28,459 nucleotides of DNA from a virus: IMG/VR virus record IMGVR_UViG_3300030110_005088, positions 1 to 28,459 of that record. The stretch is one strand, 5' to 3'. Shown in pieces: positions 168 to 28,459 of this stretch. How positions within the stretch are numbered: the stretch's first letter is position 1; every line of letters begins with the position of its first letter. The translations under genes and the position numbers were made by a program. The notes beneath the pieces were generated by a model. That model was given only the letters and a program-made list of their open reading frames with translations, searched no databases and was not told the DNA's origin.

Positions 168-196
168 ATTTTAACACTTTCGTATTACTTTGTCAA

Positions 197-3423: not shown

Positions 3424-3664
3424 CTATGGCCTCCTGTGTTTTTTGTATACAATCGGGACAGAAAAGTGTCACCGACTCTTCTTTTTCTCTAACGACCACC
3501 TTCCATGAGAATACCATTTCTTTATTGGTCTTATCAAAAGGAGCATCGCACGCAGAGCAGCTTTCAGGCAAATGTCCGAACAACATAAGTTTATCTTGCA
3601 TGGCCTGGTTGCCATCACCTTTTTTGCGTTTAGCTTCGGCTGCTCTGCGTTGTTTGCGATTCAT
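3410..3664 (-). CDS. Small zinc-ribbon-like protein
   Basis: An 84-residue protein starting with a very basic N terminus (NRKQRRAAEAKRKKG). Two cysteine pairs, C36-x2-C39 and C74-x2-C77, flank a strand-rich segment (EMVFSWKVVVREKEESVTL), as expected of a four-Cys zinc ribbon. No catalytic residues are evident. It may bind nucleic acid through the Arg/Lys-rich head, but function is unknown. Its ATG overlaps the stop codon of the dUTPase gene (ATGA), so the two are co-translated. Confidence 0.8.
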   Translation of the reverse strand: MNRKQRRAAEAKRKKGDGNQAMQDKLMLFGHLPESCSACDAPFDKTNKEMVFSWKVVVREKEESVTLFCPDCIQKTQEAIDASQ

Positions 3665-4125
3665 GTGCCGGTGCTCCCTAGGGCCCCGTCACCTCGATTG
3701 CTGATAGTCATGGGATAATCATACAGATTTCCTTGAGTTCGCTCGGTGGGTCGAAAATGCACCACTGGAATTAATACGACTTGTGCAATCTTCATGCCTC
3801 CGGCAATAAATTGTGGTTCTTTGCCAACATTATGAAGATTAACGAACACCTCACCGTCATAGCCTGAATCAATGACGCAGGCTCCCACAAGTAAATGCTT
3901 CTTAGCTGCGTTACCAGAGCGATTCTTTACCTCCAGCATATACCCATGAGGCACACCAAACTTGAGACCTGTGGCAAAGATGCCGGAGTCTCCAGGTTTA
4001 AGCCAAGTTCCAGCTACCTGATCTCCATCCGGCGCATAGAAAATGTCAAGACCTGCGTCTGATGGGTTGGCCCTATCAGGTGTGCGGGCATTGTGCCTAA
4101 TCTTGGAGTACTCAAGAATCATCAT
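3661..4125 (-). CDS. dut: dUTP diphosphatase (dUTPase)
   Basis: Hydrolyses dUTP to dUMP and pyrophosphate, keeping uracil out of phage DNA and supplying dUMP to ThyX. All five trimeric dUTPase motifs are visible in order: PSDAGLDI (21-28), NRSGNA (68-73), VIDSGYDGEV (84-93, with catalytic-type Asp86 and Tyr89), GMKIAQV (110-116) and the C-terminal P-loop-like NRGDGALGSTG (143-153). The 154-residue length fits the family. An in-frame extension to 4335 exists, but it lies inside the upstream gene and has no family similarity. The ATG pair at 4120-4125 has GGGAG just upstream, so the start is placed there, or 3 nt later at 4122. It overlaps the end of the preceding gene by 14 nt. Confidence 0.93.
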   Translation of the reverse strand: MMILEYSKIRHNARTPDRANPSDAGLDIFYAPDGDQVAGTWLKPGDSGIFATGLKFGVPHGYMLEVKNRSGNAAKKHLLVGACVIDSGYDGEVFVNLHNVGKEPQFIAGGMKIAQVVLIPVVHFRPTERTQGNLYDYPMTISNRGDGALGSTGT

Positions 4126-4366
4126 TGGCTCCCGTGAGTAGATTATAGTTGTCCACCACTTCGTCAATGCTGATCTTTCCCTTAAACAATCGATAAGCTT
4201 TGACAGCGGCGCGGATTTCATTAGTAGTGAGCCATCCGTTCTCTCGAAATTCTCCCCGAAGCTCTCGCTTCTGTTCCTTATATGGTTCCATTGCTTCTTC
4301 AATGGCGTTAAGCGAGCGAATATACTCCTTAACATACTTTTGTTTTTCTTGTAGTGTGTTGGCCAA
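4112..4366 (-). CDS. Small helical protein of unknown function (TTG start)
   Basis: An 84-residue, highly charged, helical protein. The helix EAMEPYKEQKRELRGEFREN followed by GWLTTNEIRAAVKAYRLFKG faintly resembles the DUF2312/GapR small DNA-binding proteins (coiled coil followed by NG...K..R), but the match is too weak to assign. No ATG is available near the front. The TTG at 4364-4366 has a strong AAGGAGG a few bases upstream and is the first gene after a textbook promoter (4392-4420), with a leader of about 20 nt, so this start is well supported. It leads the dUTPase transcription unit. Confidence 0.75.
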   Translation of the reverse strand: MANTLQEKQKYVKEYIRSLNAIEEAMEPYKEQKRELRGEFRENGWLTTNEIRAAVKAYRLFKGKISIDEVVDNYNLLTGANDDS

Positions 4367-5146: not shown

Positions 5147-5752
5147 TCAGCCGAAGTCGAACTCAACCTTTGCTGCGATTTTCAATTGAGGAATATGAGC
5201 ATGATTAATAAGGTTGTGTTGAGATGCCTCTTCATAATCTAAAAACCAATCAGCGTGACCTTTATCGTGAATGATGTCCAAAAAGTAATCTTCGGGGTGG
5301 CCGCAGTTTTCAGCCATCATGCGATAAACCTTTTTATTTAATCTTTCGGTTTCTTCTGCTGATGCTTTGATCTCCTCAACCTTTCCCCACTGCATCGATG
5401 ATACATCGTGAATCATCATGGTTGCATCGCGATCCATATATCGGTGCCCTTCGTCGCCAAAACTGGAGAGGATAGCTCCGCAACTCATGGCTTTTCCTTG
5501 GATGATGGTTGCGACGGTCAGGTCGGCGTGTCGAATGTCTGATATCATAGACATTAAACTATAGACTTGTCCTCCATAGCTATCGATGATGATTGGAATA
5601 ACCGGCTGGCCTGTGTTGTGAGCCTTTCGCATCAGTTCAGAAAACTCTTTAGCTGCGTCTTCAGTAAACTTTCTTACACGAATGACAACCGGAAGATTAT
5701 CAATAAGCTTGGGCTCTTTTAAGAGCGGGCTAAATTCTCTAAATACATTCAT
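5147..5752 (-). CDS. ClpP-like serine protease
   Basis: A 201-residue protein of the ClpP/crotonase fold. The catalytic triad is intact: Ser90 in GKAMSCGA, His115 in DATMMIHD (25 residues later, the same spacing as in bacterial ClpP) and Asp172 in FLDYEEA. The IDSYGGQV segment (57-63) is the usual oxyanion-side glycine loop. ClpP proteases cut unfolded or adaptor-delivered proteins. In phages, ClpP-fold enzymes also act as prohead maturation proteases, but those usually sit beside portal or capsid genes. Here the neighbours are DnaE (4-nt gap upstream) and the J-domain protein, so a host-remodelling role is equally possible. The ATG has AGGA about 7 nt upstream. Confidence 0.88.
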   Translation of the reverse strand: MNVFREFSPLLKEPKLIDNLPVVIRVRKFTEDAAKEFSELMRKAHNTGQPVIPIIIDSYGGQVYSLMSMISDIRHADLTVATIIQGKAMSCGAILSSFGDEGHRYMDRDATMMIHDVSSMQWGKVEEIKASAEETERLNKKVYRMMAENCGHPEDYFLDIIHDKGHADWFLDYEEASQHNLINHAHIPQLKIAAKVEFDFG

Positions 5753-5755
5753 TGT

Positions 5756-8700
5756 TTATCCTAATAGTCTAAAGTTTTTGCCCACTGCATAAGTCGAAAA
5801 GCCCCAGTTCTCATCGTATTTGAGCTTTGCCATGTACGGGCGGTTAATATGAATCCTGTCTTTGTGCGGTTTGATACCCCAACATCTTATCCTAGTTAGT
5901 TCGTTGTTGGAGTCAATCACTTCAACAATCCAGTACAGCTTTCCATTCTTGGTCTTGCGTTCTGTGATCTTGCGTGGGATAAACCAACATAATAGTAACG
6001 AAGGATCGTATTCGGAGATGGGAGGCACGCACTTCTCTTGAAGGCGCTCGACCTTTTCTAACGAAATCACCAAGTTAATGGGGAATACTCCGGTCAGATC
6101 TGTCTTGAACTGAATAATCTCCTCTTCACTGAAGTTTCCTTCTGGTTTGTACGTTTCGATATTCTCGCGCAAACGTTTCAAGTTCTTGGGTCGATCAACA
6201 ATACATGCAGACCAGAAGTGTTTCATTCCTGTAAAGCGGTCGTCTAGCAGGGTCTCTAACGCACCACCACGACACAATGCATCCAAGCACTTCTTGTTCA
6301 GTTTGGAGTACACAACCTCCTCATTGAACAACAAATCTTCTGCCGTCCTGAACGGCCGATGGTTCAGGACCTGCTCAATCGCAGCACCACCGAATCCTTT
6401 AATCGAAGTCAGCGGCTGAATAAGGGTCTGTCCATCATCGGAGATCTCCCACACAACTCCTGACTTGTTAATATCGAGTGGTGCAATCTTGAAACCAAAC
6501 TTCTGTGCGATGTTGATGGCTTTCTCTTTCCTTGTCTCGGGCTCTTTGTCCAAGAACGCAGCCATCCATTCTGGTCCGTAATAGTTCCACAGCCATGCAC
6601 ACTGATATGAAATAATCGAGTATGATACAGCGTGAGACTTATTGAAACCATATCCAGAAAAGTATTCAAACTTGTCCCAGAGGTTTTGGGCAACGTCTCG
6701 GTCCAAGCCTTTGTCAACGCATCCTGTGATAAACTTCTTGTGCAGCTTACCCTTTACGCTGTTCTTGCCTGTTCCCTTTTTGGTCAAGACCTTACGGAGC
6801 ATATTACCTTCGTCCAAGGTCAGGCCTCCCAGTTTGTGAGCGAGCAGTGCAATCTGTTCCTGGAAAATCAAGAACCCGAAAGTCTCACCTGTAACTTCTT
6901 GGACCTCATCTGAAATGTACTGAATATAATGAGGGCTTTCCTTGGCCTCCACATACTCTTCGTGCACATCAGCGGCCAATGGGCCCGGACGATAGATAGA
7001 CGTGATAGCTGAAACATCAATGATGTTGCGTGGCTTCACTCGGGTACAGAAGCGCTGTGCTCCCTGTTCCGTGAACTGAAAGACACCAGCCCACTTTCCA
7101 GTGTGGAAGATATTCTCATAGACCGCTTGGTCATTCATATCCAGCACGTCTGGGTGTAAGTTCTTCTCGTAGTAATCTCGCACATCAGCAAACGTCGGAT
7201 TCTGAATGCCATGATGGCGACGAAGAATGTGCTCGATGCACCCCTCCATCATCTTTAAAGTCGATAGTCCAAGCAAATCGAACTTAATAAAGCCCATGGG
7301 CTCCAGGTGTCGAACGTTTTGTCCTTCAGCCCATGGAGCCTGCCGCACACCACCAGAGTTAATCAGTGGCATGCTTTGGTCCAAGTTCTCTGCAATCACC
7401 ACACCGCCGGCATGCCGAGAGCACGAACGTACCTGTCCCACAAGCCCCTCAACGTGAGCCTTAACATCTGGATATTTATTGAGATAGTTTTGCAGCGATG
7501 GGGAAAACTCCATCACCTCTTCCCAAGTCGGATTATAGACACCAGCTTTGATGCCATGGCGGCGCTTGGCGTCCGGCATAGCTTCACGCATCATAACCGA
7601 TGTAACCGTGTTGGCTTCCGTAAATGGGATGTTGTAGAACTTAGAAATGTCTTTGATTAGAGAGCGAAGCTGTAGCGTGTTCCAGTTAGAAATCGGTGCA
7701 ACGCAATCCTCTCCCCACATTTCAACCAGCTTTTCTTTGAGAGCCATGCTGTCAGATACATCATAATCAATATCTGGATAGTCTGTGGCATCTGCTCGAA
7801 GGAAACGTGAGAACAGTAGACCATACTTGATAGGGTCAACTTGTGTAATCCCCAATACATACGCTACCAGTGAGCCAGCGGCTGAACCTCGACCTGGACC
7901 AGTCAACATCATATCAGTGGCCGTGTCAACGATAGCTTTCATCGTCAAGAAATACTTGGAGAAACCTCGGTCATCGATAACATCGAGTTCGCTTTTAAGG
8001 CGGTCCACGTACTCCTGGTTCGTGTGTAGCCCTCTACCCCTCAAACCCTCTAGAGAATAGTTTACGAGCGCTTGTGTGGCCGTATAGCCGGCAGGAACAA
8101 CGAAGCTGGGCAAGCGGACAGTATTATCTGGAAGAAAATCCTCAATACGGTCGAATGCGATTCGATATGTCTCCTCGATAGAATCTCGAACCACCGCGTC
8201 ATCATACTCAATGTTAGCTTCTGAAGAGTACTTTTTGTAACTCTCCCAGATCTGGTCACCGTTCTTGGGATAAAGCTCGTAGCCCACCTCTTGTACATCA
8301 ATCGGAAGATCTGATGACATGTATTCGGGGAGACCACCCTTTCCTAACCATCCAAGGCGCGTATATAGTTCGCGATCACGCCACGCTGTCGGCGTTGGAT
8401 AGTGAGAGTCGGCAGTTGTAATCAACCGCAAGTCAAACTCTTTAGCCACTTGGATGATGTGTTGATTCAGGGCGTGCTGCTCGGGCACATTATTCCACTG
8501 AATCTCAGCGTACCAGCGGTCTCCGAAGATATCGACCATCTGGCGGGTGGTCTCCCGCATTGCATCAAGAACCGCGTCGTCTCCATCCTCGCGGTTTTCC
8601 CAATAGTTCCCAGCGTATACGCCCCCAAGACAGGCGGATGCTGCGATGATCCCCTCATTGTACTTCTTAAGCAAAGCATAATCAATGCGAGGATAGCGGT

Positions 8701-9184
8701 AGAAATTCTCTGGCTGGTATGATTCTGACACCAGCTTAAATAAGTTGTTTAGTCCTGTTTGATTCTGGACCAATAGAACGATGTGTCTACGGCGGCGAAG
8801 AATGTCTTGCGTCTTCTTGGACGCACCCTCGTCTTCTACGGTGGCGCCTGACTGTTCATCTTTCTTAATAGAACGTGCGCGCTTCTTGTCTTCCATCGCG
8901 GTGGCATACTCTTCGCGCCACTCCTCTAGCGATGGTAGGAAATAAGCTTCACACCCAAAGATAGGTTTGAAGTCTCTGCCCTCCGACTTCATCTTCTTGG
9001 CGTGCAATACCTGATAGGCGAGACCGTTCATATTTCCATGGTCAGTGAGCGCCAGTGCTTCTCCGCCGTTTTCATAGCAAAAATCCATATGGTCCTGCGG
9101 ATAGCCAATGGCGTCAAAAATAGAGCCTGCAACACTGTGCGCATGCAGGCCAACAAATTTAATATCAGACGTTTTTCTCGTCAT
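5756..9184 (-). CDS. dnaE: DNA polymerase III alpha subunit-like polymerase (family C)
   Basis: A 1142-residue family-C replicative polymerase, near the length of bacterial DnaE. The N-terminal PHP domain keeps all expected metal ligands: H14, H16, D48, H49, E79, H134, C184, D259 and H261, so it may be an active proofreading 3'-5' exonuclease. The palm contains GRGSAAGS (432-439 region), the catalytic pair D471/D473 in YPDIDYD and the third Asp D636 in KFDLLGL. HAGGVVIAE precedes it, as in bacterial DnaE. The C-terminal about 80 residues look like the OB domain. The start ATG at 9182-9184 follows GGAGGG and promoter P2. No clamp or clamp loader is in the window. Family C is uncommon in phages, which more often use families A or B. 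Confidence 0.96.
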   Translation of the reverse strand: MTRKTSDIKFVGLHAHSVAGSIFDAIGYPQDHMDFCYENGGEALALTDHGNMNGLAYQVLHAKKMKSEGRDFKPIFGCEAYFLPSLEEWREEYATAMEDKKRARSIKKDEQSGATVEDEGASKKTQDILRRRRHIVLLVQNQTGLNNLFKLVSESYQPENFYRYPRIDYALLKKYNEGIIAASACLGGVYAGNYWENREDGDDAVLDAMRETTRQMVDIFGDRWYAEIQWNNVPEQHALNQHIIQVAKEFDLRLITTADSHYPTPTAWRDRELYTRLGWLGKGGLPEYMSSDLPIDVQEVGYELYPKNGDQIWESYKKYSSEANIEYDDAVVRDSIEETYRIAFDRIEDFLPDNTVRLPSFVVPAGYTATQALVNYSLEGLRGRGLHTNQEYVDRLKSELDVIDDRGFSKYFLTMKAIVDTATDMMLTGPGRGSAAGSLVAYVLGITQVDPIKYGLLFSRFLRADATDYPDIDYDVSDSMALKEKLVEMWGEDCVAPISNWNTLQLRSLIKDISKFYNIPFTEANTVTSVMMREAMPDAKRRHGIKAGVYNPTWEEVMEFSPSLQNYLNKYPDVKAHVEGLVGQVRSCSRHAGGVVIAENLDQSMPLINSGGVRQAPWAEGQNVRHLEPMGFIKFDLLGLSTLKMMEGCIEHILRRHHGIQNPTFADVRDYYEKNLHPDVLDMNDQAVYENIFHTGKWAGVFQFTEQGAQRFCTRVKPRNIIDVSAITSIYRPGPLAADVHEEYVEAKESPHYIQYISDEVQEVTGETFGFLIFQEQIALLAHKLGGLTLDEGNMLRKVLTKKGTGKNSVKGKLHKKFITGCVDKGLDRDVAQNLWDKFEYFSGYGFNKSHAVSYSIISYQCAWLWNYYGPEWMAAFLDKEPETRKEKAINIAQKFGFKIAPLDINKSGVVWEISDDGQTLIQPLTSIKGFGGAAIEQVLNHRPFRTAEDLLFNEEVVYSKLNKKCLDALCRGGALETLLDDRFTGMKHFWSACIVDRPKNLKRLRENIETYKPEGNFSEEEIIQFKTDLTGVFPINLVISLEKVERLQEKCVPPISEYDPSLLLCWFIPRKITERKTKNGKLYWIVEVIDSNNELTRIRCWGIKPHKDRIHINRPYMAKLKYDENWGFSTYAVGKNFRLLG

Positions 9185-16562: not shown

Positions 16563-17546
16563 TTAATTTTCATTTACAATTCGGTTTAAGTTTGCCCGGA
16601 GATCTTCCCAATTTAGTTCTCCAAAACCATCATCTCGCATCATCCCAATAATCTCAGTTCGATTAAAATCAAACTCAAATTGCTCTACAGATTCTTTTAC
16701 AAACTGCTTTGATTTGATCGACATCTGTGGCGCATACAACTGCATCATTGTATAATTGTGCTGGATGACATCTCGGCTCTCTGCCACGTTAACATAAAAC
16801 TTCAGATTACTTTCTTCTGCTTTGTTCTCGCAATGCTTGATTACGTCGTCAATCGTATAAGTGGTCGATTCTCCTAGGAATCCTAGGCGCTTGGCGACAG
16901 TAGCGAAGCCGGCGCCTTTAATCCCTGGAAGGTTATCAGACGCATCACCAATAATAGAACGAGCTAGAGCCATGTTAGTGGGATGAACACCAAGCTGTTC
17001 TACGATTCGACTAGCATTAAGAACTTCATCCTTGGTAGGTCTCCATAGAACAGTCTTATCGTCGCAGATCTGCATAAAATCTTTATCATTAGAGACAACA
17101 ATCTTTTGCCAATCTGCATACTGCGGCATACTTGTCGCATAAGATATAACATCGTCGGCTTCAATCTCTGGTATCATAAATTGAATCACCGGCATGTTGT
17201 TAAGATATTCTACAATACGAGTCTGCTGCCAGATCTTGTTCTGTAGCTCTTCATCATCTGTCAAGTTGTGAAAAGCTCGATTAAGTCTGATGGGTTTCCG
17301 GCCGGCTTTGTAGTTCTTATCCATGCTCTTGCGCTTCTTGGAACCGTTAGGTCCATCCCACACGATCATAACTTGTGTAGGGCGAGTCTGGCGCACGAGT
17401 TTTTGAAGAATTTTCATAAATCCCTTGATGCCTCCAATGGGTTGTCCGTTAGATGACAATGAGGGGTCTACAATATAGGCTCGTAAATATGCGTTGAGAG
17501 CATCTACAATCAATAGTCTTTTTTGTGATTTGTTTTCGAAAGTCAT
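16563..17546 (-). CDS. 5'-3' exonuclease / flap endonuclease (FEN family)
   Basis: A 327-residue nuclease of the PIN/FEN fold, like T4 RNase H or the 5' domain of Pol I. Metal ligands are visible in LLIVDALNAY (Asp15), EIEADDVISY, VVSNDKDFMQ and GDASDNLPGIKG, followed by the helix-hairpin-helix GAGFATVAKRLG that grips duplex DNA. It removes RNA primers and flaps on the lagging strand. The family-A polymerase in this window lacks its own 5' nuclease domain, so the two gene products together resemble a split Pol I. The ATG overlaps the UvdE stop (ATGA). The C-terminal about 60 residues are acidic and may interact with SSB; that is inference. Confidence 0.93.
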   Translation of the reverse strand: MTFENKSQKRLLIVDALNAYLRAYIVDPSLSSNGQPIGGIKGFMKILQKLVRQTRPTQVMIVWDGPNGSKKRKSMDKNYKAGRKPIRLNRAFHNLTDDEELQNKIWQQTRIVEYLNNMPVIQFMIPEIEADDVISYATSMPQYADWQKIVVSNDKDFMQICDDKTVLWRPTKDEVLNASRIVEQLGVHPTNMALARSIIGDASDNLPGIKGAGFATVAKRLGFLGESTTYTIDDVIKHCENKAEESNLKFYVNVAESRDVIQHNYTMMQLYAPQMSIKSKQFVKESVEQFEFDFNRTEIIGMMRDDGFGELNWEDLRANLNRIVNEN

Positions 17547-18484
17547 GCTGCATTCCTTTTGTCTTTATTATTCATTATATCACGATATCGCAAAAGCGCA
17601 AGTTCTTTATGCTTTGCTTCGATCATCACATCAAAGCTGTTGCCGTAGTCGTCAAACTCATTGATGATATAATCAGAATGAGCTTGAGGTTTGATTTTGG
17701 GATTTTTGTACTCTACAGAACGAGACTCGGCATAGTGAACCACAGGTTTGATATCTCCCCATGTAGAGAGCGCAAGCTCAAGAGCTTCTTGCTCTGTTTG
17801 ATCTCCGGGATGAAGCATGTGATGATGATAGTCAAACACAATTGGGATCCCAATGCGCTTGTAAACACCCTCGTATAGTTCCTGTGTGGAGTATAGAGAT
17901 GCTTTGTCGTCGTTTTCAACCGTAAGTCGTGAACGGACAGATTCTGGCAGACGTTCGAAGTTGCGACAGAAGTTGTCAAGAGCAAAGGGTTTGTCGCCGT
18001 AGGCTGCACCAACATGAATATTAAGCTTGGCGTAAGGGGTGCGAGGCAAACCAATCATGTCAAATAGATCACCGTGAACCTTGAGATCCTTGTATGTAAG
18101 CTGGAATACTCTTTCTTTTGGTGATGCCAACTTGTTGAAAGGACCTGGATGTGAGGTTAGTCGCATGTTGTGCTGGCGAGCAAAGTTGCCCGCGGACTGG
18201 CATGCCTCCAGAATTTGCTCGTAATCTGGCAAGTCCTCCATCGCATATTCACTGGCCCATGGAACAATATCGGAAGATAGACGATAGAAATAAATATCGT
18301 TATCCAGATTCCACTGGAGAATCTTGTATAGATCTTGCGCATTTTGTAGAGCCAGTTCGGATGCGTATCCGATACCTTTCTCCTTGAACGTGCGCTTAAT
18401 CATTGTTCTGTTGGTTGTGATCCGCTTCGACTTAGGGCGATTAGAAAACCCCATGTTGATGCATGCATATCCGTAATTTCTCAT
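17543..18484 (-). CDS. uvdE: UV damage endonuclease (UvdE/UvsE family)
   Basis: A 313-residue TIM-barrel endonuclease that nicks DNA 5' of pyrimidine dimers and some other lesions, starting an alternative excision repair. It begins MRNYGYACINMG, as family members do. Expected metal-site residues appear in order: His112 (SHPGPF), His157 (NIHVGA), Glu190 (LTVENDD), Asp218/His220 (FDYHHH), His250 (VHYAES), His269 (AHSDYI) and Glu289 (MIEAKHKE). The gene is full length. It overlaps the deaminase upstream and the FEN gene downstream by ATGA, and the FEN nuclease could assist in removing the damaged flap. A phage-borne light-independent repair gene fits sunlit-water exposure. Confidence 0.93.
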   Translation of the reverse strand: MRNYGYACINMGFSNRPKSKRITTNRTMIKRTFKEKGIGYASELALQNAQDLYKILQWNLDNDIYFYRLSSDIVPWASEYAMEDLPDYEQILEACQSAGNFARQHNMRLTSHPGPFNKLASPKERVFQLTYKDLKVHGDLFDMIGLPRTPYAKLNIHVGAAYGDKPFALDNFCRNFERLPESVRSRLTVENDDKASLYSTQELYEGVYKRIGIPIVFDYHHHMLHPGDQTEQEALELALSTWGDIKPVVHYAESRSVEYKNPKIKPQAHSDYIINEFDDYGNSFDVMIEAKHKELALLRYRDIMNNKDKRNAA

Positions 18485-19330: not shown

Positions 19331-20479
19331 TTAATCTTTAATTGGAACTGTGAGGTCTTCGGGATCAGCATAGAAAATGTCTGCTGTTCCTTCTCGGCGA
19401 TCAAACTTCTGTACGATCTCCTCATCCATTAGACGTATGACTCTTTGTTTAAATTCATCATCAGATGTAATTAAATCGTTCCATTTAGAAGGTTGAAACT
19501 TTTTAGTGTAACCGTCCGGTGTGGAAAGCGTGTACCAAGCTCCAGCGCTTGTCAGAGAGGTCGATCCTTTGATAGCATCAAACCATGATTCTTCGTCTCG
19601 AATTCCAATCTGATCTGTACCCCACATAATGCGGAAGGCACATGAACGTCCTTGGGTTCCGAAACGAGACTTCTCCAACCTCACTTTAACTTCGGAGCCA
19701 ATACGAAATCCTTTCTCATCCTCAATAAAGGCCGCCTTCGCTTTTCGTCCAGTCAGCCAAATACGCAAAGAATATGCATAATGCATAGCTTTACCACCAG
19801 GCGTGATGTACGGTGTGGTCATGGCCACAATACGTGCATTCGGACCTTGGGGAATGTTAGTCTTCAACTGATTAAGGACCAGAAAGGTTGCTCTCTTATC
19901 TGCGATAGGAATAACCAGTTTGGACATACCTTTGGCTAAAATACGAGCCTTCATAGCCATCGATGACTGTGGGTTGAAGTCGCCTTCAACATCAGATACA
20001 GATGGCGTGAACGCTAGCGAGTCCCAGATGAAAAGCATCTGCTCATCGGTTGCACCAAGGATTTCCTCGATAGTCTCTAAGACAAACTCTACCGATGCCG
20101 CTTGAACATACATAAGATGCTCAAGATCACAACCGGCGCGCTCCAAAAACGATGGATCAATAGCCGACTCTGAATCAAAGTAAACTACCATCATACCCAT
20201 TTTTTGAGCATTTGCTGCTACCTGTACTGCCATGTACGACTTACCAGTAGCTTCTAGGCCAGCGATTTCAGTAACCTTTCCAACAGGAATACCTGACACC
20301 TGACCTTTACTAATAATACTGTCAAGCCAGCGAGAGCCCGTAGGGATCCACTCCTTAACTTCCGTGGGATTATCGCCGGTCAAATCATGAGCGACCGTAA
20401 CCCCTGCTTTTTTATTAACAAGACTCATCAAATCTTGCATAGAAACCTTTCCAGGTTTAGTTTTGGCTTTTCTTGCCAT
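19331..20479 (-). CDS. uvsX: RecA/UvsX-type recombinase
   Basis: A 382-residue RecA-fold strand-exchange protein. Walker A is GLEATGKS (74-81), Walker B LFIWDS (149-154). Further RecA landmarks are VVYFDSESAID (98-108, the E of which senses ATP) and the glutamine switch region FLVLNQLKTNIPQGPN. DNA-binding loops are likely at the segment after MTTPYITPGGKAMHY. In T4, UvsX drives recombination-dependent replication and repair with gp32. Here it directly follows the gp32-like gene, fitting the same partnership. AGGAGG lies 4-5 nt before the ATG. A terminator-like hairpin in the gap upstream may lower read-through from the SSB gene. Confidence 0.93.
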   Translation of the reverse strand: MARKAKTKPGKVSMQDLMSLVNKKAGVTVAHDLTGDNPTEVKEWIPTGSRWLDSIISKGQVSGIPVGKVTEIAGLEATGKSYMAVQVAANAQKMGMMVVYFDSESAIDPSFLERAGCDLEHLMYVQAASVEFVLETIEEILGATDEQMLFIWDSLAFTPSVSDVEGDFNPQSSMAMKARILAKGMSKLVIPIADKRATFLVLNQLKTNIPQGPNARIVAMTTPYITPGGKAMHYAYSLRIWLTGRKAKAAFIEDEKGFRIGSEVKVRLEKSRFGTQGRSCAFRIMWGTDQIGIRDEESWFDAIKGSTSLTSAGAWYTLSTPDGYTKKFQPSKWNDLITSDDEFKQRVIRLMDEEIVQKFDRREGTADIFYADPEDLTVPIKD

Positions 20480-20559: not shown

Positions 20560-21327
20560 TTAGGACATCAGTTCCTCGAACGCCTTATCTACATCGTTCG
20601 TCGTCTGGGCGGAGTACTTCGTGGTCTCTTTCGAACGACTCTCAGCAGAACCATCGCCAGAGAGTTGTTCGTCCAGAATAGCACCGACTTGATCGCTTGT
20701 CAAGCGTTCGAATATAGTATCGAACTCAGGTACGCGGTCTAGGAGGGCAGGGATAGATTCCGCGTCGGCGAGCAGGGGGGATGTGTTGCGGCGCATCTTT
20801 AGGCTCGTTTGGGGGTATGCACCAGGCTTGTTGGGCTTGGTGTAAGTTAGAGTGATATCGGTGCCCTCATGAGCATCAGTAATATCACCGTATTCTGGGT
20901 CAAGGATATAGCCCAAAAGAAGTTCGTATGCCTTCTTTCCATATCCATAGACCTTGACACCTTCGTCTTCACGACCGCGAACGACCACGGGCGAGAAATA
21001 ACGTTGGCGTACAAAAAGTGACTTAGCAAGCGTTTTGCTTTCCTCGTCGTTGTTGGAGGTGCCTTCGCGCCATAACGCAGAAGCAAACTCGCAGATTGGA
21101 CATGCTTCGCCGAAGTTACGCTTCGGGCAAAGAACGCCGCCGCGATGCTCGCCCACATTATAGTGGAAGTGCATCTCCTTAAGGGGATCCCCGTCATTGG
21201 TTGGGATAATACGAATGTCCGTATCGCCCTCATCTGGCTTAAACCAGACAGATGGAGTGTTATCTCCGTTTCCTTCTCCTCGAAGGGATGCAAGTTTTCG
21301 TCGCATCAGTTCCATATCAATTGCCAT
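20560..21327 (-). CDS. Single-stranded DNA-binding protein, T4 gp32-like
   Basis: A 255-residue ssDNA-binding protein. The basic N terminus (MELMRRKLASLRG) resembles the gp32 LAST/B domain used for cooperative binding. The OB-fold core contains a zinc site of the gp32 type: His residues at 53, 55 and 61 and Cys67, Cys76, Cys79 (VLCPKR, EACPICE). The core continues through FVRQRYFSPVVVRG and VKVYGYGKKAYELL. The tail is a Ser/Thr-rich linker with an acidic end (DVDKAFEELMS) that in gp32 recruits other replication proteins. It starts with AGGAG 10 nt before the ATG and has two promoters upstream, in keeping with high expression. Confidence 0.9.
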   Translation of the reverse strand: MAIDMELMRRKLASLRGEGNGDNTPSVWFKPDEGDTDIRIIPTNDGDPLKEMHFHYNVGEHRGGVLCPKRNFGEACPICEFASALWREGTSNNDEESKTLAKSLFVRQRYFSPVVVRGREDEGVKVYGYGKKAYELLLGYILDPEYGDITDAHEGTDITLTYTKPNKPGAYPQTSLKMRRNTSPLLADAESIPALLDRVPEFDTIFERLTSDQVGAILDEQLSGDGSAESRSKETTKYSAQTTNDVDKAFEELMS

Positions 21328-21379: not shown

Positions 21380-21408
21380 ATTGTGGCACACTCGACGTAG
21401 CTTGTCAA
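21380..21408 (-). promoter_or_regulatory. Sigma70-type promoter P5a upstream of the SSB gene
   Basis: Perfect -35 TTGACA (21403-21408), 17-nt spacer, -10 CACAAT (21380-21385, 4 of 6). The -35 lies in the palindrome GCTTGACAAGC and contains the TGA stop of the tubulin-like gene. With P5b it forms a tandem pair. Confidence 0.6.
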
Positions 21409-22244
21409 GCGTAATTTTGTACTACGTTAGTAAGGGCAACGCAGAACCCAAAATCAGTAAAATCAGTTTCGTAAATCGCATAAGAAATTTTTCGAAAAGC
21501 ATTTGTTGGTTTTGCCTTAAGCAAATCAACCAAACGTTTATGAAGCTCCCCATCTGTCTCCAATTTTTCCCTGTTTATACACATATAATAACATATGTCT
21601 CGATCCATGTCAAGAGGAAAAAGCCATTTTTCTTCAAGATTTTTCATATTGAGCAAACCGATGGTTCTAATACGACAAATATCCAATGGCTTGGAGACCA
21701 TCCCGATTTCTGGCTCATTGTGCTGAAAGAAATTAAGATAATGTACCGTCTGAAAAATAGATTCATTGAGGGTATCGTAATATTTCTTAATCGGCACACT
21801 TCCAATGTGCATTTCAAGCAGTTCGTTGTTCATGATAGTTAAAGACTTAAGGAGGCCTGAACGAGCATACTCCTGAAGAACACTAAACACTACTTTGTCG
21901 AGTAATTTTGGAACACCTGTCAAGAGAGTAGAATCAGGCTTAATGTAAAAGACCTCGATTTCTTTATCTTTTAATTGCTCTAAAACACCGAGCGTATAAT
22001 TAGAACTCATTGAAGAGCCCACCACAAAGAACTGAACCCTATCATTGACGGATTTAAAAAAAGTTTTTAGCTGTGGTATGTTTGCTTCATATTCTTCTGA
22101 AGTGTCGTATGTTTTTAGCTTACGTTTATATTTGCTATGGGATTCTACCGCACTATTCAATTGAAAAACCTTATAGTTTTTAACAGGTTTGAACTTTTCT
22201 ACAATTTTAGATGCGCCGTTTCCAAGACCAATAACCGAGATCAT
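21405..22244 (-). CDS. Divergent FtsZ/tubulin-like protein
   Basis: A 279-residue protein with the layout of the FtsZ/tubulin fold. It starts with ISVIGLGNGASKIVEKF (compare the FtsZ T1 loop GxGGAG...). A strand plus loop QFFVVGSSMSSNYTLGVLEQ (71-90) sits where the GGGTGTG signature should be, but the glycines are mostly replaced. Then come VFYIKPDS, a long helix (PKLLDKVVFSVLQEYA), and RSGLLKSLTIMNNELLEMH (128-146), matching the FtsZ segment around SLITIPNDKLL. PLDICRIRTIGLL (186-198) fits the T7 synergy loop. Phage tubulins (PhuZ, TubZ) move or centre DNA. The degraded phosphate loop raises doubt about GTP turnover. It overlaps the family-A polymerase stop by ATGA. The fold call is by pattern, not proven. 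Confidence 0.65.
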   Translation of the reverse strand: MISVIGLGNGASKIVEKFKPVKNYKVFQLNSAVESHSKYKRKLKTYDTSEEYEANIPQLKTFFKSVNDRVQFFVVGSSMSSNYTLGVLEQLKDKEIEVFYIKPDSTLLTGVPKLLDKVVFSVLQEYARSGLLKSLTIMNNELLEMHIGSVPIKKYYDTLNESIFQTVHYLNFFQHNEPEIGMVSKPLDICRIRTIGLLNMKNLEEKWLFPLDMDRDICYYMCINREKLETDGELHKRLVDLLKAKPTNAFRKISYAIYETDFTDFGFCVALTNVVQNYA

Positions 22245-23431
22245 ATCCCCAACTCTTTCAATTCAAAATAGTTTTTGCCTGCCTTGATTGTGCTAAGATA
22301 GTCATCATCGCCCTCAAACGTTTTTTGAATATCTTTAATCAATGGCCGATCATCATTATGAAAGTCTATCACAATTTCATCATGAAGTAAATGGGAAATA
22401 AAAGATTTTCTTCCCTCCAGCATCTTATCGATAGCTACAGCCTTCTCAAATACGCGGTCGGCGGTGGTACTTTGAATCAAATAGTTGAGGGCGCGCCGGT
22501 CATCGATTTCCATCTTGCGATTATAAGGCGTTCTCACATACTCTCCGTCGTACCATTCTCTCAACAAAGTGCTCTTGTTATAAACTTCACTCAATGGTTC
22601 TTTCTCATCAGAATTATACAACCATGCAAAGAATTCAATCTTAGCTTCATCTCTGGATAGTGAGTTCGCATACACGTTGCGCACGTTCCATTCGTGAATA
22701 TCATGAAGTGGTTGCTTGTATCCACACAAATCAAGAAACGTGCGAATCTCAGCGCCATTATAATCTAAGGCCACAAAAAGCTCGTTATTTGGCTTCAGAA
22801 GCTTTCTAAAGTCCTTCTTAACAGTTAGTATGGGAAACGAGCCAGGACGCGTTGTGAGGCGTCCTGTGGCCGTTCCGAACAGGTTGTAGTCGATATAACT
22901 GTAGTTCTTTACAAGTTCTTGGGCTTTAGTACGATCAAGACTTGATAGCATCAAGTGCCGACAGTCTTCGGTATTCAGATTGAGCTTATTATACCTTATT
23001 TTATATAGGAGCTTTTCAGTGTCGCACAGATGTTGATAGTTTGCAGGCTTTTCGTAGTTATCAAAAACGTGTTCTGTGATGCGGTTTTTTACCTCGCAGT
23101 ATCGTTTTAAAAAATCATGTGGAACCAAATCAAAAATACAATGATCGTTTAAGTTGACCTTCGCAATTTTGAACGTCTTGATATAGGCGCGCAGTTTTTG
23201 TTCGGTGCTCTGCAACTCCTCAACATATCCATTAGGACAACATTCTGCTAATGTGCCCCCGTCAGTGTATAGCCATGCATACTCCACTTCGTCGTCCAAA
23301 ATGGAGCCGGTGTATCGCCAGGTTCTTTTTAGGTTTTCAGGAAAATTATCAAAATGTAATTTACCATCTACGTACATACCAATACATTCAGATTTATCAT
23401 CAATTGACTGAAAATACAATTTTATCCCCAA
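22241..23431 (-). CDS. Family-A DNA polymerase core (Pol I Klenow-like, no exonuclease domains)
   Basis: A polymerase of about 396 residues. Motif TGRLTTRPGSFPIL (189-202), motif A ALDYNGAEIR (Asp223, Glu228, Arg230), motif B with R260, K264, F268 and Y272 at exact Pol I spacing (SRDEAKIEFFAWLY), the helix LNYLIQSTTADRVFEKA, and motif C H350-D351-E352 (LHDEIVID) are all present, so nucleotide addition should work. Only about 130 residues precede the thumb, too few for a 3'-5' exonuclease domain, and no DxE motif is seen; the 5' nuclease is a separate gene. The fingers are shortened. No ATG lies near the front; TTG at 23431 or 23419 (the latter with GGGGA 6 nt upstream) or ATG at 23377 may be used. 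It may fill gaps or help repair beside DnaE. Confidence 0.88.
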   Translation of the reverse strand: MGIKLYFQSIDDKSECIGMYVDGKLHFDNFPENLKRTWRYTGSILDDEVEYAWLYTDGGTLAECCPNGYVEELQSTEQKLRAYIKTFKIAKVNLNDHCIFDLVPHDFLKRYCEVKNRITEHVFDNYEKPANYQHLCDTEKLLYKIRYNKLNLNTEDCRHLMLSSLDRTKAQELVKNYSYIDYNLFGTATGRLTTRPGSFPILTVKKDFRKLLKPNNELFVALDYNGAEIRTFLDLCGYKQPLHDIHEWNVRNVYANSLSRDEAKIEFFAWLYNSDEKEPLSEVYNKSTLLREWYDGEYVRTPYNRKMEIDDRRALNYLIQSTTADRVFEKAVAIDKMLEGRKSFISHLLHDEIVIDFHNDDRPLIKDIQKTFEGDDDYLSTIKAGKNYFELKELGI

Positions 23432-23443
23432 TATTTATTTAAT

Positions 23444-24766
23444 CTAAGCCGGTGTCGGTGGTAGGTCAGAACGATCAGGATTGTCTTCATATAGATCTTC
23501 GTCGCTAATGGACATGAGACCTCCACCAATGCCCTCAACAATATCCAATGGCTGCCCATCATTCATTTGTTTTTCCAATCCTTCTAAGTCAACCTTGTTC
23601 ATATAATAATGTAGAGATCCTATTTTGTCAAACTCTTTGTTTATAATGCTTTCAAAAAATAACGACACAGGTTGGTAAGACCTACTGGATTGGCACATTT
23701 CTATAGTATCTCTTACAATTTTATTCATATCTTCTTCAGGCATGTGTGGCTGCTCTTCGTACAGCCGCAGATAAAGATAAAGTTTAAGAAATGATTTTCG
23801 AGATCTGGCTGTAGACAGCAACTTTCGCAAATCATACTCAACTGGTTTAATCTCTGTTGTTATAATATCACCTTTGCATTCTTCTGTCAAGGAAAAATTG
23901 CCTTGTCGACAAAAATTATAGAGTCTCAAGAGTTGCTCTATAAATTTTGATAGTCCTATCATACTAGCAGACCGATATCCTTTTGTCAAAATGGACACCG
24001 TATTAGGAAGGCGGTATCTTGAGCTAATCTGGTGAACTTCTGGTGCTGCGATATCCATAACAATTCGCCATGGAATATTAGCATCTATCCTAAATCCATA
24101 TGAATTACAAGCATTAACAAAATATAACCAGTTAGGGCTGTTGATAAAATCTTCAATTTTCTTATCATCGTTTGTGTAACTAAGGTCAGCAATTTCTAAC
24201 GCTAACCCAGACGCTAAAACGGAGCAACTTCTGCTTTTTACATATCCAGCAAACGTGAAACGAACGCGGTGGACCATATGTTGCAAATAGGGCATCAGTA
24301 TATCAATAAACTCTTCGAAATTAGTAAAATATTTTTGATTTTTTAAAATGTATTTTTTAATATTATTAAAATAGATTTGTTGGTGGTGCAAGTATCCGGC
24401 TTGCGGAGACTCGTATGCCTTATACACTTGTAAATTTGTTAAGTATGGATCTTTGGTCGAAATCTTTCCTAACATTGCACTTTTTTTAAACTGATTTGCC
24501 ATCTCTACAAAGATATCATTAACAAAATTTAAAAGCTGCAATTGTTGGCCATCTGGTGCTTCATATGGAAGAGTTTTCAAAAAAGCATCATCCACCACGA
24601 CTGGCGCCATATCGCGTGATACTCTACCATAGTATAATCTTTCTCCAAAATTAAAATCTACAATATTTTTGTGACCTTGGCTTGATATTTTAAGACTATA
24701 GTTGATTTTCTTATTAAAAAGGTTATAAGCAGTCTCATTGTTGCTCTGTGCGTAATCTTCTGACAT
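23444..24766 (-). CDS. Conserved phage-type protein, probably virion-associated
   Basis: A 440-residue protein without recognisable enzyme motifs. Residues 224-240 (GFRIDANIPWRIVMDIA) resemble a segment (YGF...D...PWR.V..) that I recall from hypothetical proteins of marine myophages, though I cannot name the family. N-terminal residues 1-60 mention a possible small beta domain; residues 130-175 and 300-350 are helical and basic. The C terminus is acidic and glycine-containing (GIGGGLMSISDEDLYEDNPD). It follows the giant gene after 3 nt and precedes the polymerase after 12 nt. A structural or assembly role is suggested only by the neighbour. The ATG has GAGG about 11 nt upstream. Confidence 0.8.
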   Translation of the reverse strand: MSEDYAQSNNETAYNLFNKKINYSLKISSQGHKNIVDFNFGERLYYGRVSRDMAPVVVDDAFLKTLPYEAPDGQQLQLLNFVNDIFVEMANQFKKSAMLGKISTKDPYLTNLQVYKAYESPQAGYLHHQQIYFNNIKKYILKNQKYFTNFEEFIDILMPYLQHMVHRVRFTFAGYVKSRSCSVLASGLALEIADLSYTNDDKKIEDFINSPNWLYFVNACNSYGFRIDANIPWRIVMDIAAPEVHQISSRYRLPNTVSILTKGYRSASMIGLSKFIEQLLRLYNFCRQGNFSLTEECKGDIITTEIKPVEYDLRKLLSTARSRKSFLKLYLYLRLYEEQPHMPEEDMNKIVRDTIEMCQSSRSYQPVSLFFESIINKEFDKIGSLHYYMNKVDLEGLEKQMNDGQPLDIVEGIGGGLMSISDEDLYEDNPDRSDLPPTPA

Positions 24767-24769
24767 CTA

Positions 24770-27700
24770 TTACTGTGCCTCCTCGGCAGCTTTCTGACGT
24801 TTATCCAAGAATACCTTGCAGGAAGCGTTTGATGCGCCGGGTGCTACTGGGTCGGAAGTTAGTTGGGCGCAATTTTCGGCGGCATCTACTGCATTGACCC
24901 ATTTCGCATACAACGTGGTGTCGGCTCGGCCGGCCATAAAGTTGTGTTCAGATCTATAAATCATATAATATCCACCAACTCCTAGTTTAGTTAAATCCAG
25001 TATACTACCTCCTTGTCCTGTGAACATGGGAGTATTTGGGGCGAAACCTCGGGGATCCACGAACAAGTAAGTGCCCGGAAACGTGTTAACATTACAATAT
25101 GTATCGATCTGCACATCATACACCACTCTTAATTGTTGCAATCCGTCATAGCCATCTTGTTCAAACCGAACCTCGGCTAATCCTTTTGTTTGAGTTTTTG
25201 TGAGTTTTATATTCTTAATTAGTCCCTTGTTACGACCCAGAAGATAATGAAAAATTCCCTTTTCCTCATCATCGGCACGAATTCCTTTCATTTGCTCAAG
25301 AGGCATCGTCCGACCAGCAGAGTAAACAAAATAATTAAACTCATTATTCAAAGGGACGCTGGTTCTTGCACTGTCGTGAGGGCCAGATACGGGCAAAATT
25401 GGTTCAGAAGATAGAAGATCTTTTATATTGGCTCTAAATTCAGTAGTCTTGGCGGCCGATCGCTTGCCTCTGGGGGAAGTGTTAATAATTTTTCCTGTTA
25501 CCACATCTTGTGTGTCACTATCCGAGTAAGCTGTTATAGCTGCTTGGTTTACTCGGATCCTTTGAGATTGCCCTAACGCTGTTCCACAATTATCGCTATT
25601 AAAGGCATCTCGCACAAGCGTATTGAAAAACTCATTTAAAAACTTTGTCAATCCATAATAGCTCTCTTCTTTGCTTAGCATTTTGGAAGTTAAAAATTCT
25701 ACAAAGTAACGAATAGAAACCGGGATATCACCTAAGTTAATGAAACTGACATCTTCTGGAGATGCACCATCTTCATTGGGCACAGTGTGGCGTAATTCCA
25801 TGGGTCCCAATAAAATTCTAAGTTTTTGGAAGTTTCTTAGGGCGATCTTATGCTCTTTGGCCATTTCAGTTATCCTGTCTGCAGACACCGCCACCGGGTT
25901 ATTAAGGTTTGCAACACCATATGACTTTAAGTTAAAGCCGGTCAATCCGGCGTTGATTGTTTCAATTTCTGATAAATCATCTAATTCGCTCTCTATATTA
26001 GCCAAAATCATATCGATTAAATCACTAACATAAAAATAAGTTAACAGTTGGTTTCCGGTACCAGCGCCAAATATAGCGCGAGCTACAGCATCTTGTTCGG
26101 GGGCGCCCTCTTCGGGGTTACTGGGGTCTCTATTTGCTTCTTCCTCATATGCCTTGGTGGCCTCTTCAAGTTCTGATTCTGTTAGGGACCCTTGACCGGA
26201 TTCATAGTCCTTTATATTTAGCGCCGACTCGTTGAGAATCCACTTATGAACTAACACCCTAGCATCTGCATTGCTTCGATAACGTGCGTATGCCCTAACA
26301 GTGCCCAATGGAACAGTGAGATATTTCATTTTGTTACTTTCAATAAGGTCTTTTGTCAATTTTTTAAAAGCGTTAGAGTTTTCAGAAGCAATTTCATCTC
26401 TAAATTCTTCTTTCAAAGCTGATACTACTTCTGCAGAATTTTCACCGCACGATTTAGAGTATGTCTCTATAGCTGCGTTTCTGGCTATTCTACGGGGAGC
26501 TATTTTTCCTGTAGCGCTCTTGGCACCAGCAAAAATATTAAATTTATTAGTATCGAAGAATTGCTCAATATAAGCAAGATAATTTATATTAAAGGTTACT
26601 CTTCCCTGGTCATCAAACTCAAAATTATGAACCGTGGGAGTAAGATTGAGACTAACGAAAGATTCTCGCAGGGCTTCACGCAATTGACTACTGAGGATTG
26701 GGCTATTATCTCCAGGCAATTTTTTGGCTGCAGCCCAACCGACTTCTGCTTTAAGTCTAAAATTAAGCTCTTGCAGAGTAATATTTTGATGTTCTAAATC
26801 TTGACAATTCATTTTCTGATCTTTGGCTTTCCCCCCAAAGTTACCAGTCTTCAAGGCTAAATCGATGTACCGAAATTTATGCTCTCCGTTAGCGGGAAGT
26901 GATTTTTTTAGAGTGCGCTCATTAAGCAACTCCTTCATATTATTAGCAAAAATTTTAAGATTACCTTTGATGCTCTTCTTTACCGCAAAAGGATTGCTTC
27001 CTTCATAAGAAAAAGTAAAACTTTTTATACCGACTCCGGTGCCTCTGGATCCTTGGCCTTTTGTGAAAAATTGTAATTCTCTGCCAGTTGTGTTGGTCTC
27101 AAAAGGCACTTCAACTTCAAAACTATCGTCTCCGTTCTCATCGAACACTACTTTATAAAGTCGAATTTTAGGTTGCAGCGCCGATAATTCATAACCTTCA
27201 ATATCCATTAAATGTTTTAATTTAGGACTTAAAGTCAGCCGATTCATAAAAGCATATGGATCTCCGTTCAATAACAAGGTGGCGTTCGATGAGCCGGCCG
27301 TTTTGGCAGTCTTATCATTGTTGTCCGAATGAACATAAGGCAGTCTTTTGGATGCTTTTTTACCATTGGTGTTCGTTTTATCACTCATGATCTTTCTTTT
27401 AGCGAAGATATCCGCATGATTCATCAAAAAACACTGCTCTTTGATTAGTGTGCGGCGACGATCAACAATCTCGCGTACTTGCTGCAGCGTTGAGCCGGCG
27501 TTTTGGGCGCGGCGCTCATGCTGATCGCGGCCTTGCTTCTGTCTGACTTTCCTCAGAAAAATGGTCTCACCCCAACCACTTGGCTTGTCGGCGTCGAGGC
27601 CGGCATTGGCCATAAACTCGGCAAACTCTTGAGCATCAATTAACAGGTCAACGACCGCTTGTTGTAGCAAGCAGTGAGCCATTGTTTTTAGAGCTTCGTA

Positions 27701-28459
27701 ACGTGGCGCGATTTGAGCATGATAGGCTTTCAGCAAGCTGCTAATTGCTTGCAACATGGTGGACTCAGAATCTGTGAAGTTGCCGATATCGGGATCGACG
27801 CCATCAAAAAAACCATTACCGGTCAAATTAGAGGGACTTAGGTTTTGAGCAGCAGTGTCTAGTTTACTTAAAAGAGAACGCAAGTCTGGTTGATAGGTTA
27901 GTAGTTCGCCGGCCGTACTCGACCGACTTCGGCGCAATTCTTTTTTTTGTTCATGTGATATTGTCATTACGTTTGTGCCGCGGGCGCGGTTATATCGGTT
28001 GTTGTTAGCGCGCTTATAGGTCTGAGCATGCCAGCCTTCGAAGCGATTATTGGAATCTGTATAATAATTTACAAAGGTCAGCGGCTGTGGAATGGGGCGT
28101 ACACCGGTCGACATGGCCGCGGCCACTCCACTCGATGGCTTAGGAATATCAAAGTCAATTCCTGCATAGGTTCCTTCATAACCTTTTTCGCTATTTCCAT
28201 CGTCATCGACGCCATGGTCATAAATGTCATAAAGACCTGCGAATGCTTTGGCTCCTTCTTCCCAGTTTGTGACAGCGGCACCCATCGTTTCCCATTCATC
28301 TGTAATTTTACCTTTTTCAACCACCAAGTCACTAATCCACATAACAACACTCAACAAGGTAGCCCATCCAGATGGGTAAGCTTGTGCTTGACCGGTAGCA
28401 CTTGTCATGTTTGCGGAGTCATCACCGCCGGCACCTTGTTCAACAACGAGGGTGACCAG
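24770..28459 (-). CDS. Giant protein, 5' end outside window; probable virion structural protein
   Basis: At least 1229 residues. An ATG at 28406-28408 exists, but the frame is open for 17 more codons to the window edge (LVTLVVEQGAGGDD...) and no ribosome site precedes that ATG, so the true start lies outside. The first 350 residues are helical and Ala/Arg-rich (KELRRSRSSTAGELL, KQGRDQHERRAQNAGSTLQQ). A stretch of strand-rich sequence follows (SFTFSYEGSNPFAVKKSIKG and later QLRVVYDVQIDTYCNVNTFP). Near the end, GGYYMIYRSEHNFMAG then TTLYAKWV resembles the last strands of baseplate-hub/late-control-D proteins, a weak clue to a tail or baseplate role. No protease, lysozyme or nucleotide-binding motif was recognised. 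Family unknown. Confidence 0.85.
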   Translation of the reverse strand: MVTLVVEQGAGGDDSANMTSATGQAQAYPSGWATLLSVVMWISDLVVEKGKITDEWETMGAAVTNWEEGAKAFAGLYDIYDHGVDDDGNSEKGYEGTYAGIDFDIPKPSSGVAAAMSTGVRPIPQPLTFVNYYTDSNNRFEGWHAQTYKRANNNRYNRARGTNVMTISHEQKKELRRSRSSTAGELLTYQPDLRSLLSKLDTAAQNLSPSNLTGNGFFDGVDPDIGNFTDSESTMLQAISSLLKAYHAQIAPRYEALKTMAHCLLQQAVVDLLIDAQEFAEFMANAGLDADKPSGWGETIFLRKVRQKQGRDQHERRAQNAGSTLQQVREIVDRRRTLIKEQCFLMNHADIFAKRKIMSDKTNTNGKKASKRLPYVHSDNNDKTAKTAGSSNATLLLNGDPYAFMNRLTLSPKLKHLMDIEGYELSALQPKIRLYKVVFDENGDDSFEVEVPFETNTTGRELQFFTKGQGSRGTGVGIKSFTFSYEGSNPFAVKKSIKGNLKIFANNMKELLNERTLKKSLPANGEHKFRYIDLALKTGNFGGKAKDQKMNCQDLEHQNITLQELNFRLKAEVGWAAAKKLPGDNSPILSSQLREALRESFVSLNLTPTVHNFEFDDQGRVTFNINYLAYIEQFFDTNKFNIFAGAKSATGKIAPRRIARNAAIETYSKSCGENSAEVVSALKEEFRDEIASENSNAFKKLTKDLIESNKMKYLTVPLGTVRAYARYRSNADARVLVHKWILNESALNIKDYESGQGSLTESELEEATKAYEEEANRDPSNPEEGAPEQDAVARAIFGAGTGNQLLTYFYVSDLIDMILANIESELDDLSEIETINAGLTGFNLKSYGVANLNNPVAVSADRITEMAKEHKIALRNFQKLRILLGPMELRHTVPNEDGASPEDVSFINLGDIPVSIRYFVEFLTSKMLSKEESYYGLTKFLNEFFNTLVRDAFNSDNCGTALGQSQRIRVNQAAITAYSDSDTQDVVTGKIINTSPRGKRSAAKTTEFRANIKDLLSSEPILPVSGPHDSARTSVPLNNEFNYFVYSAGRTMPLEQMKGIRADDEEKGIFHYLLGRNKGLIKNIKLTKTQTKGLAEVRFEQDGYDGLQQLRVVYDVQIDTYCNVNTFPGTYLFVDPRGFAPNTPMFTGQGGSILDLTKLGVGGYYMIYRSEHNFMAGRADTTLYAKWVNAVDAAENCAQLTSDPVAPGASNASCKVFLDKRQKAAEEAQ

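Follow-up and report, generated by a model that had tools for sequence, protein, structure and literature searches.

In the DNA of an uncultured virus, we identified a gene, termed tub1, whose product is predicted with high confidence to have the FtsZ/TubZ fold, very probably does not hydrolyze GTP, and is translationally coupled to a short family A DNA polymerase (PolA); the start of tub1 sits in the ATGA that closes the polymerase gene (stop at position 22241). Our tentative reading is that tub1 is a pseudo-GTPase and the obligate, cotranslated partner of PolA, with docking onto a second, canonical tubulin (tub2) as the most likely mechanism. The window, i.e., the whole stretch of DNA analyzed, is a 28.5-kb record, which also contains genes for DnaE, a DnaB-like helicase, ribonucleotide reductase, ThyX, dUTPase, a 5'-3' exonuclease, UvsX/RecA, and a gp32-like single-stranded DNA binding protein (SSB). 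A preliminary description had reported the open reading frame (ORF), its length of 279 residues, a series of sequence blocks, and the overlap with the upstream polymerase, all of which we found as described, on the minus strand (Table 1).

TABLE 1 Features of the window and residue positions of the tub1 loops
Feature	Position	Strand	Evidence
tub1: 279-aa tubulin-fold pseudo-GTPase (predicted)	21405..22244	-	ORF, AlphaFold2, Foldseek, loop conservation
4-nt ATGA stop/start overlap, polA/tub1	22241..22244	-	sequence
polA: short exonuclease-less family A DNA polymerase, 396 aa, start TTG as listed	22241..23431	-	Pfam DNA_pol_A 3e-10
gp32-like SSB, next downstream of tub1	20560..21327	-	Pfam gp32 1.6e-15, phrog_1192 3.3e-22, synteny
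UvsX/RecA-type recombinase	19331..20479	-	phrog_97 3.2e-60, Pfam RecA 5e-33, synteny
u440: protein of 440 aa, encoded upstream of polA with conserved synteny	23444..24766	-	no convincing family match
DnaE-type (family C) replicative polymerase	5756..9184	-	phrog_405 1e-230
tub1 loop positions (residues)	T1 6-12; T4 76-83 (GSSMSSNY); T5 102-110; T6 Asn140; H7 Asn160; T7 about 177-188		

The structure of tub1 was predicted twice with AlphaFold2 without templates, using alignments of 30 sequences (pLDDT of 87.6, pTM of 0.88) and 57 sequences (pLDDT of 92.2, pTM of 0.90, all five models at 88.7 or above); both runs concern the same protein and differ in alignment depth, so that they are not fully independent. 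When either model was compared with the Protein Data Bank (PDB) using Foldseek, all top 50 matches were FtsZ, TubZ, or CetZ, aligned over the whole length with E values of about 1e-12 to 1e-10, a probability of 1.0, and query TM scores mostly of 0.64 to 0.74. In a viral library, the best-ranked named matches were phage FtsZ/tubulin entries (query TM score of up to 0.75, 6.7e-12), followed by nontubulin Rossmann proteins, namely, nucleotide-sugar epimerases (query TM score of about 0.34, E value of about 1e-3). The elements that define the tubulin/FtsZ fold, which are an N-terminal Rossmann-type domain, the core helix H7, and a C-terminal mixed-sheet domain, were all found in the predicted structure: a 23-residue helix (residues 152 to 174) is located at the H7 position, a C-terminal strand-helix-strand domain follows, and the order of elements is that of the superfamily. 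Two structure predictions thus back the tubulin-like fold proposed in the preliminary description, as do three fold searches, in which no other fold was the best match. At the level of sequence profiles there was no significant match of any kind in Pfam, NCBIfam, PHROG, and PDB HMM searches, PF00091 and TIGR00065 included, and hhalign comparisons of tub1 with tub2 or Escherichia coli FtsZ gave E values of 0.02 to 0.1 at probabilities below 3%.

The nucleotide pocket was inspected in a representative set of 57 tub1 sequences that share less than 80% identity, with pairwise identities down to 44%. We relied on predicted secondary structure to locate T4 and T7, the register of T7 being approximate; a MAFFT alignment of tub1, tub2, and FtsZ positioned T1, T6, and the H7 asparagine sensibly in one mode and misplaced T4. 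A number of features emerge. (i) T1 is shortened to G6-x-G8 followed by N/T/S, A/G, A/G, and S, and some members of a more divergent clade possess a more FtsZ-like GxGxAGxN (e.g., GIGTAGCN). (ii) The GTPase signature GGGTG(S/T)G is absent from T4, which reads G76-S-S-x-S-S-N-Y, such that GGGTGTG is swapped for a fixed, glycine-free S-x-S-S-N-Y. Positions 77 to 83 contain no glycine in 53 of the 57 members and a single one in the other 4; the loss of the phosphate-loop glycines, originally noted for one protein, hence extends to the family. (iii) P103 and D104 of T5 are invariant. (iv) Asn140 of T6 (55/57) and Asn160 of H7 (57/57), which we take to be the guanine-contact positions of tubulins, are retained. 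(v) Catalytic acids of the NxDxxD type are missing from T7; there is no DxxD between H7 and S7, and this region contains P186 (55/57) and, as the nearest conserved acid, E/D188 (50/57). Since the replacement residues are conserved, the pocket seems repurposed and not eroding, which makes a loss of GTP hydrolysis likely, and the asparagines kept in T6 and H7 point to a specialized pseudo-GTPase instead of a decaying gene. Judged from these motifs, it is highly probable that tub1 does not hydrolyze GTP and that its old nucleotide pocket has become a remodeled, fixed site; nucleotide binding is still conceivable, as tub1 retains the acid at position 188 and the presumed base-contact asparagines.

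A search of IMG/VR with the single tub1 protein retrieved 73 related loci, an alignment of tub1 used as the query led to at least 590 confirmed stretches, and a query from the more divergent clade resulted in 100 loci; these numbers are not additive, since the same contigs recur across searches. In marine viral contigs, the family runs to hundreds of members. No relative was detected among 50,697 cultured phage records (best E values of 2 to 4, corresponding to chance), in which the PolA of tub1 loci likewise had no tblastn match, and neither tub1 nor tub2 was found in a prokaryote genome collection using a few short peptide patterns that could miss distant members. We found no description of the family in the open-access literature that we searched. 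The median dN/dS ratio of tub1 was 0.062 (665 pairs, which are not independent and in many of which dS is high). Tub1 is a real gene under strong purifying selection, and this ratio together with the conservation rules out a pseudogene. The term "degenerate," used initially for tub1, therefore applies to its altered GTP loops and not to the gene as a whole, given the purifying selection, the conserved replacement residues, and the presence of both complete domains in the model. A role as a defense system was also discarded, as there was no PADLOC match. The larger relatives that carry tub1 are about 190 kb in size and encode the T4-type capsid protein gp23, which argues against nucleus-forming phages (Chimalliviridae). 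Many tub1 relatives have a short tail beyond the fold, e.g., QQKTLDKLEQE or KKTLDMLDQE (L069:5001-5861, L050:5001-5864), which may be a docking peptide; the clade of the window's own tub1 stops at NYA and has no such tail.

The polymerase belongs to family A according to its motifs A, B, and C (DYNGAE, R...K...F...Y, and HDE), which are conserved in 58 nonredundant members and indicate a catalytically intact enzyme; at about 396 amino acids there is no room for the usual exonuclease domain. Among 157 distinct loci with both genes, polA and tub1 overlap by 4 nucleotides in 156 and are separated by a gap of 9 in one, and tub1 begins with ATGA (143 loci), GTGA (11 loci), or TTGA (3 loci). To counter the bias of a tub1-based selection, loci were also gathered by PolA alone from the best 80 matches, a sample that does not extend to remote PolA relatives; tub1 was present with the same 4-nucleotide overlap in 65 of the 65 loci that had downstream room. 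Neither a PolA of this type without tub1 nor a tub1 without PolA was seen in the sampled loci, and the gene order u1212-u440-polA-tub1-ssb-recA is widely kept in relatives. The coupling of tub1 to the polymerase, first noticed in a single locus, is thus a fixed family trait. The overlap is not due to chance; it shows coexpression and is not evidence of contact. In a mirror-tree comparison of tree distances, tub1 followed PolA slightly more closely than SSB and RecA (partial r of 0.38 versus 0.24 and 0.25, respectively). The phage has two DNA polymerases, the short family A enzyme and the family C enzyme DnaE, the latter being 72 to 82% identical in four large relatives. With DnaE encoded in the window, the main replicase is probably an enzyme other than PolA.

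Several other genes of the window deserve mention. The 440-amino-acid protein and a 1,212-amino-acid protein (24770-28408) are large, conserved, and syntenic with polA-tub1, and the latter also lacks a convincing family match. The dUTPase ORF (3661-4335) overlaps an 84-amino-acid ORF in another frame (4112-4366); the dUTPase domain begins near residue 82, so that the true start is probably internal. Further genes encode an IMP dehydrogenase/GMP reductase family protein (1651-2679; PF00478, E value of 1.4e-101), a UvdE-type UV damage endonuclease (17543-18484; PF03851, E value of 8e-60), and a ClpP-like/head maturation protease-like protein (5147-5752) that is located directly downstream of DnaE, outside any head gene cluster.

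A search of the large relatives with PF00091 revealed a separate ORF of about 380 amino acids, tub2, that scored above the curated cutoff in three genomes and was partial in a fourth. Tub2 keeps the motifs GVGGGGN, GGGGGTGSS, and DNER as well as the DxxD of T7, which are essentially invariant over 22 members (22/22 for DxxD, which is absent from tub1). Sequence searches link it to FtsZ in the PDB and, weakly, to phrog_4733 (tubulin PhuZ; E value of 0.006), and it possesses the intact GTPase loops typical of PhuZ and TubZ, whereas tub1 does not. The tub2 gene shares the strand of tub1 and lies about 39 to 46 kb upstream of it; in G001, the ends of the contig fall within this interval, as they would in a circularly permuted genome. 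Among the records searched, both genes were found in all 11 contigs spanning both positions (three with an end-cut tub2: G006, G007, and G022); in other contigs, the expected position of tub2 or tub1 lies beyond the contig end, as judged by hand from the coordinates, with G010 near the limit, where the gp23 position puts tub1 just off the end. The window is too short to include tub2, and we infer from the relatives that its phage carries the gene. In the vicinity of tub2 are genes for a DnaG-type primase, a RuvC-like resolvase, and a fused SbcD-SbcC protein, and a terminase gene lies downstream. At L147:2897-6004 (+), SbcD and SbcC (T4 gp47 and gp46 type) are apparently fused into a protein of 1,035 amino acids upstream of tub2. 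Of 38 loci, 11 show a 4-nucleotide overlap of tub2 with SbcCD; in the remainder, intervening sequence mostly separates the two. An acidic, conserved N-terminal extension of about 65 amino acids (NEFDFLPPAEPPPSF...EDFGMVEDFGLQMEYSDEDLLP) precedes the GTPase domain of tub2, as seen at L143:1297-2445 (+), L144, L145, and 66 loci, and is a possible interaction tail.

The mechanism that we propose has three steps. (i) Tub1 would have a remodeled, fixed pocket and would not hydrolyze GTP, of which we are largely convinced. (ii) Tub1 would bind PolA stoichiometrically, which we consider reasonably likely. (iii) The tubulin face of tub1 would dock on tub2, by which PolA-dependent synthesis or repair would be tethered on or near the filament; this step is doubtful. 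A complete two-tubulin system, in which tub2 would polymerize and the GTPase-dead tub1 would plug PolA into the filament to organize viral DNA synthesis or repair, is more speculative still. Tub1 and tub2 each belong to the core genes of the phage clade, so that their co-occurrence says little about an interaction; the two genes also lie about 40 kb apart.

A plain role as a dedicated PolA accessory subunit, in which the tubulin fold would be reused for processivity, fidelity, or substrate delivery with no link to a filament, is nearly as likely as the view that links PolA to tub2, and we regard it as a genuine if minority possibility. It is in line with the obligate coupling to PolA and with the location of tub1, which adjoins the SSB and RecA genes and not tub2, and a polymerase devoid of an exonuclease could use a helper; however, it leaves unexplained why the same phages encode a canonical tubulin and why the presumed guanine-contact asparagines are retained in tub1. 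Tub1 might instead be GTPase dead and serve the tub2 filament as a cap, seed, or spacer, the adjacency to polA concerning only the timing of expression. The presence of both tubulins in all informative contigs is consistent with this idea, as is the lack of the T7 acids and of the phosphate loop, with which tub1 could not trigger hydrolysis in a neighbor. We nevertheless consider such a cap unlikely, since the coupling partner is always PolA and never the distant tub2, and there is no significant sequence relation between the two tubulins.

Many phages block host division, and FtsZ is the closest solved fold to tub1, so that tub1 might mimic an FtsZ subunit and poison the host FtsZ ring, as the preliminary description had considered alongside a cap, a scaffold, and a replisome tether. 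The obligate tie to polA and the location among replication and recombination genes speak against this, as does the fact that the gene has long been constrained in a clade whose hosts are presumably diverse, and we judge it quite improbable. On context, a tub2 cap and a host FtsZ poison are both less likely, and the obligate PolA link favors a role as a PolA partner or tether over poisoning. An artifactual fold call, with tub1 being another Rossmann protein that binds, e.g., NAD, deserves hardly any credence. Some members do show weak Pfam matches to F420_oxidored and GARS_N (best E values of 0.0008 to 0.002), and the Pfam Tubulin family was matched by just 1 of the 57 members (E value of 0.15); yet F420_oxidored and GARS_N represent generic nucleotide-binding N-terminal domains, and the two models of different alignment depth both led to full-length FtsZ/TubZ matches.

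Known phage tubulins move or center DNA and depend on GTP. Here, the tubulin fold takes the form of a conserved, predicted pseudo-GTPase that we encountered only together with its DNA polymerase. The ocean phages concerned are abundant and also have a motif-complete tubulin, and this combination suggests that viral DNA replication or repair has put the cytoskeletal fold to a second use. If the link between PolA, tub1, and tub2 is physical, a viral cytoskeleton would be directly joined to DNA synthesis, and PolA-tub1 plus tub2 form a compact set for direct biochemistry. Tub1 represents a branch of the tubulin superfamily that is missed by profile searches, so that such proteins may be undercounted in viral dark matter.

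Among known systems, bacterial and archaeal FtsZ proteins are the best PDB matches and share with tub1 the two-domain fold with strands S1 to S6, the core helix H7, and the C-terminal sheet. Tub1 differs from FtsZ in sequence (about 11 to 13% identity), in the missing T4 glycines, the shortened T1, and the lost DxxD of T7, and in sharing its operon with PolA instead of with division genes. TubZ of Bacillus plasmids and phage c-st resembles tub1 in fold (2xka, query TM score of 0.73; 4ei7) and in being encoded by mobile elements. TubZ has intact GTP loops and works with TubR in DNA segregation; in contrast, tub1 lacks these loops, and no adjacent partition gene was identified. PhuZ of nucleus-forming jumbo phages is also a phage-encoded tubulin fold and centers the phage nucleus (PMC4244570, PMC13282480); PhuZ and TubZ both form filaments in a GTP-dependent manner (PMC4244570, PMC3678025, PMC13282480). 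Unlike PhuZ, tub1 is a putative pseudo-GTPase, is coupled to PolA, and occurs in T4-like phages (gp23 type, about 190 kb), whose PhuZ-like protein is tub2. A survey of jumbo phages describes two distinct FtsZ/tubulin representatives among them, and its passages on these mention no PolA-linked or inactive form (PMC7824862). Likened by description only, ARC3 is a working analogy to tub1, namely, an altered FtsZ-like protein that regulates a canonical FtsZ. ARC3 carries an altered FtsZ-like domain and, unlike tub1, is a eukaryotic plastid protein with no polymerase link. According to one report, it regulates the FtsZ ring in chloroplast division (PMC13335998). Some archaeal FtsZ paralogs lack functional motifs (PMC2875224) and, together with FtsZl1 and FtsZl2, are diverged superfamily members like tub1; FtsZl1 and FtsZl2 differ from it in being cellular and in keeping the GGGTG(S/T)G loop, and FtsZl1 is found in a membrane-remodeling context (PMC2875224).
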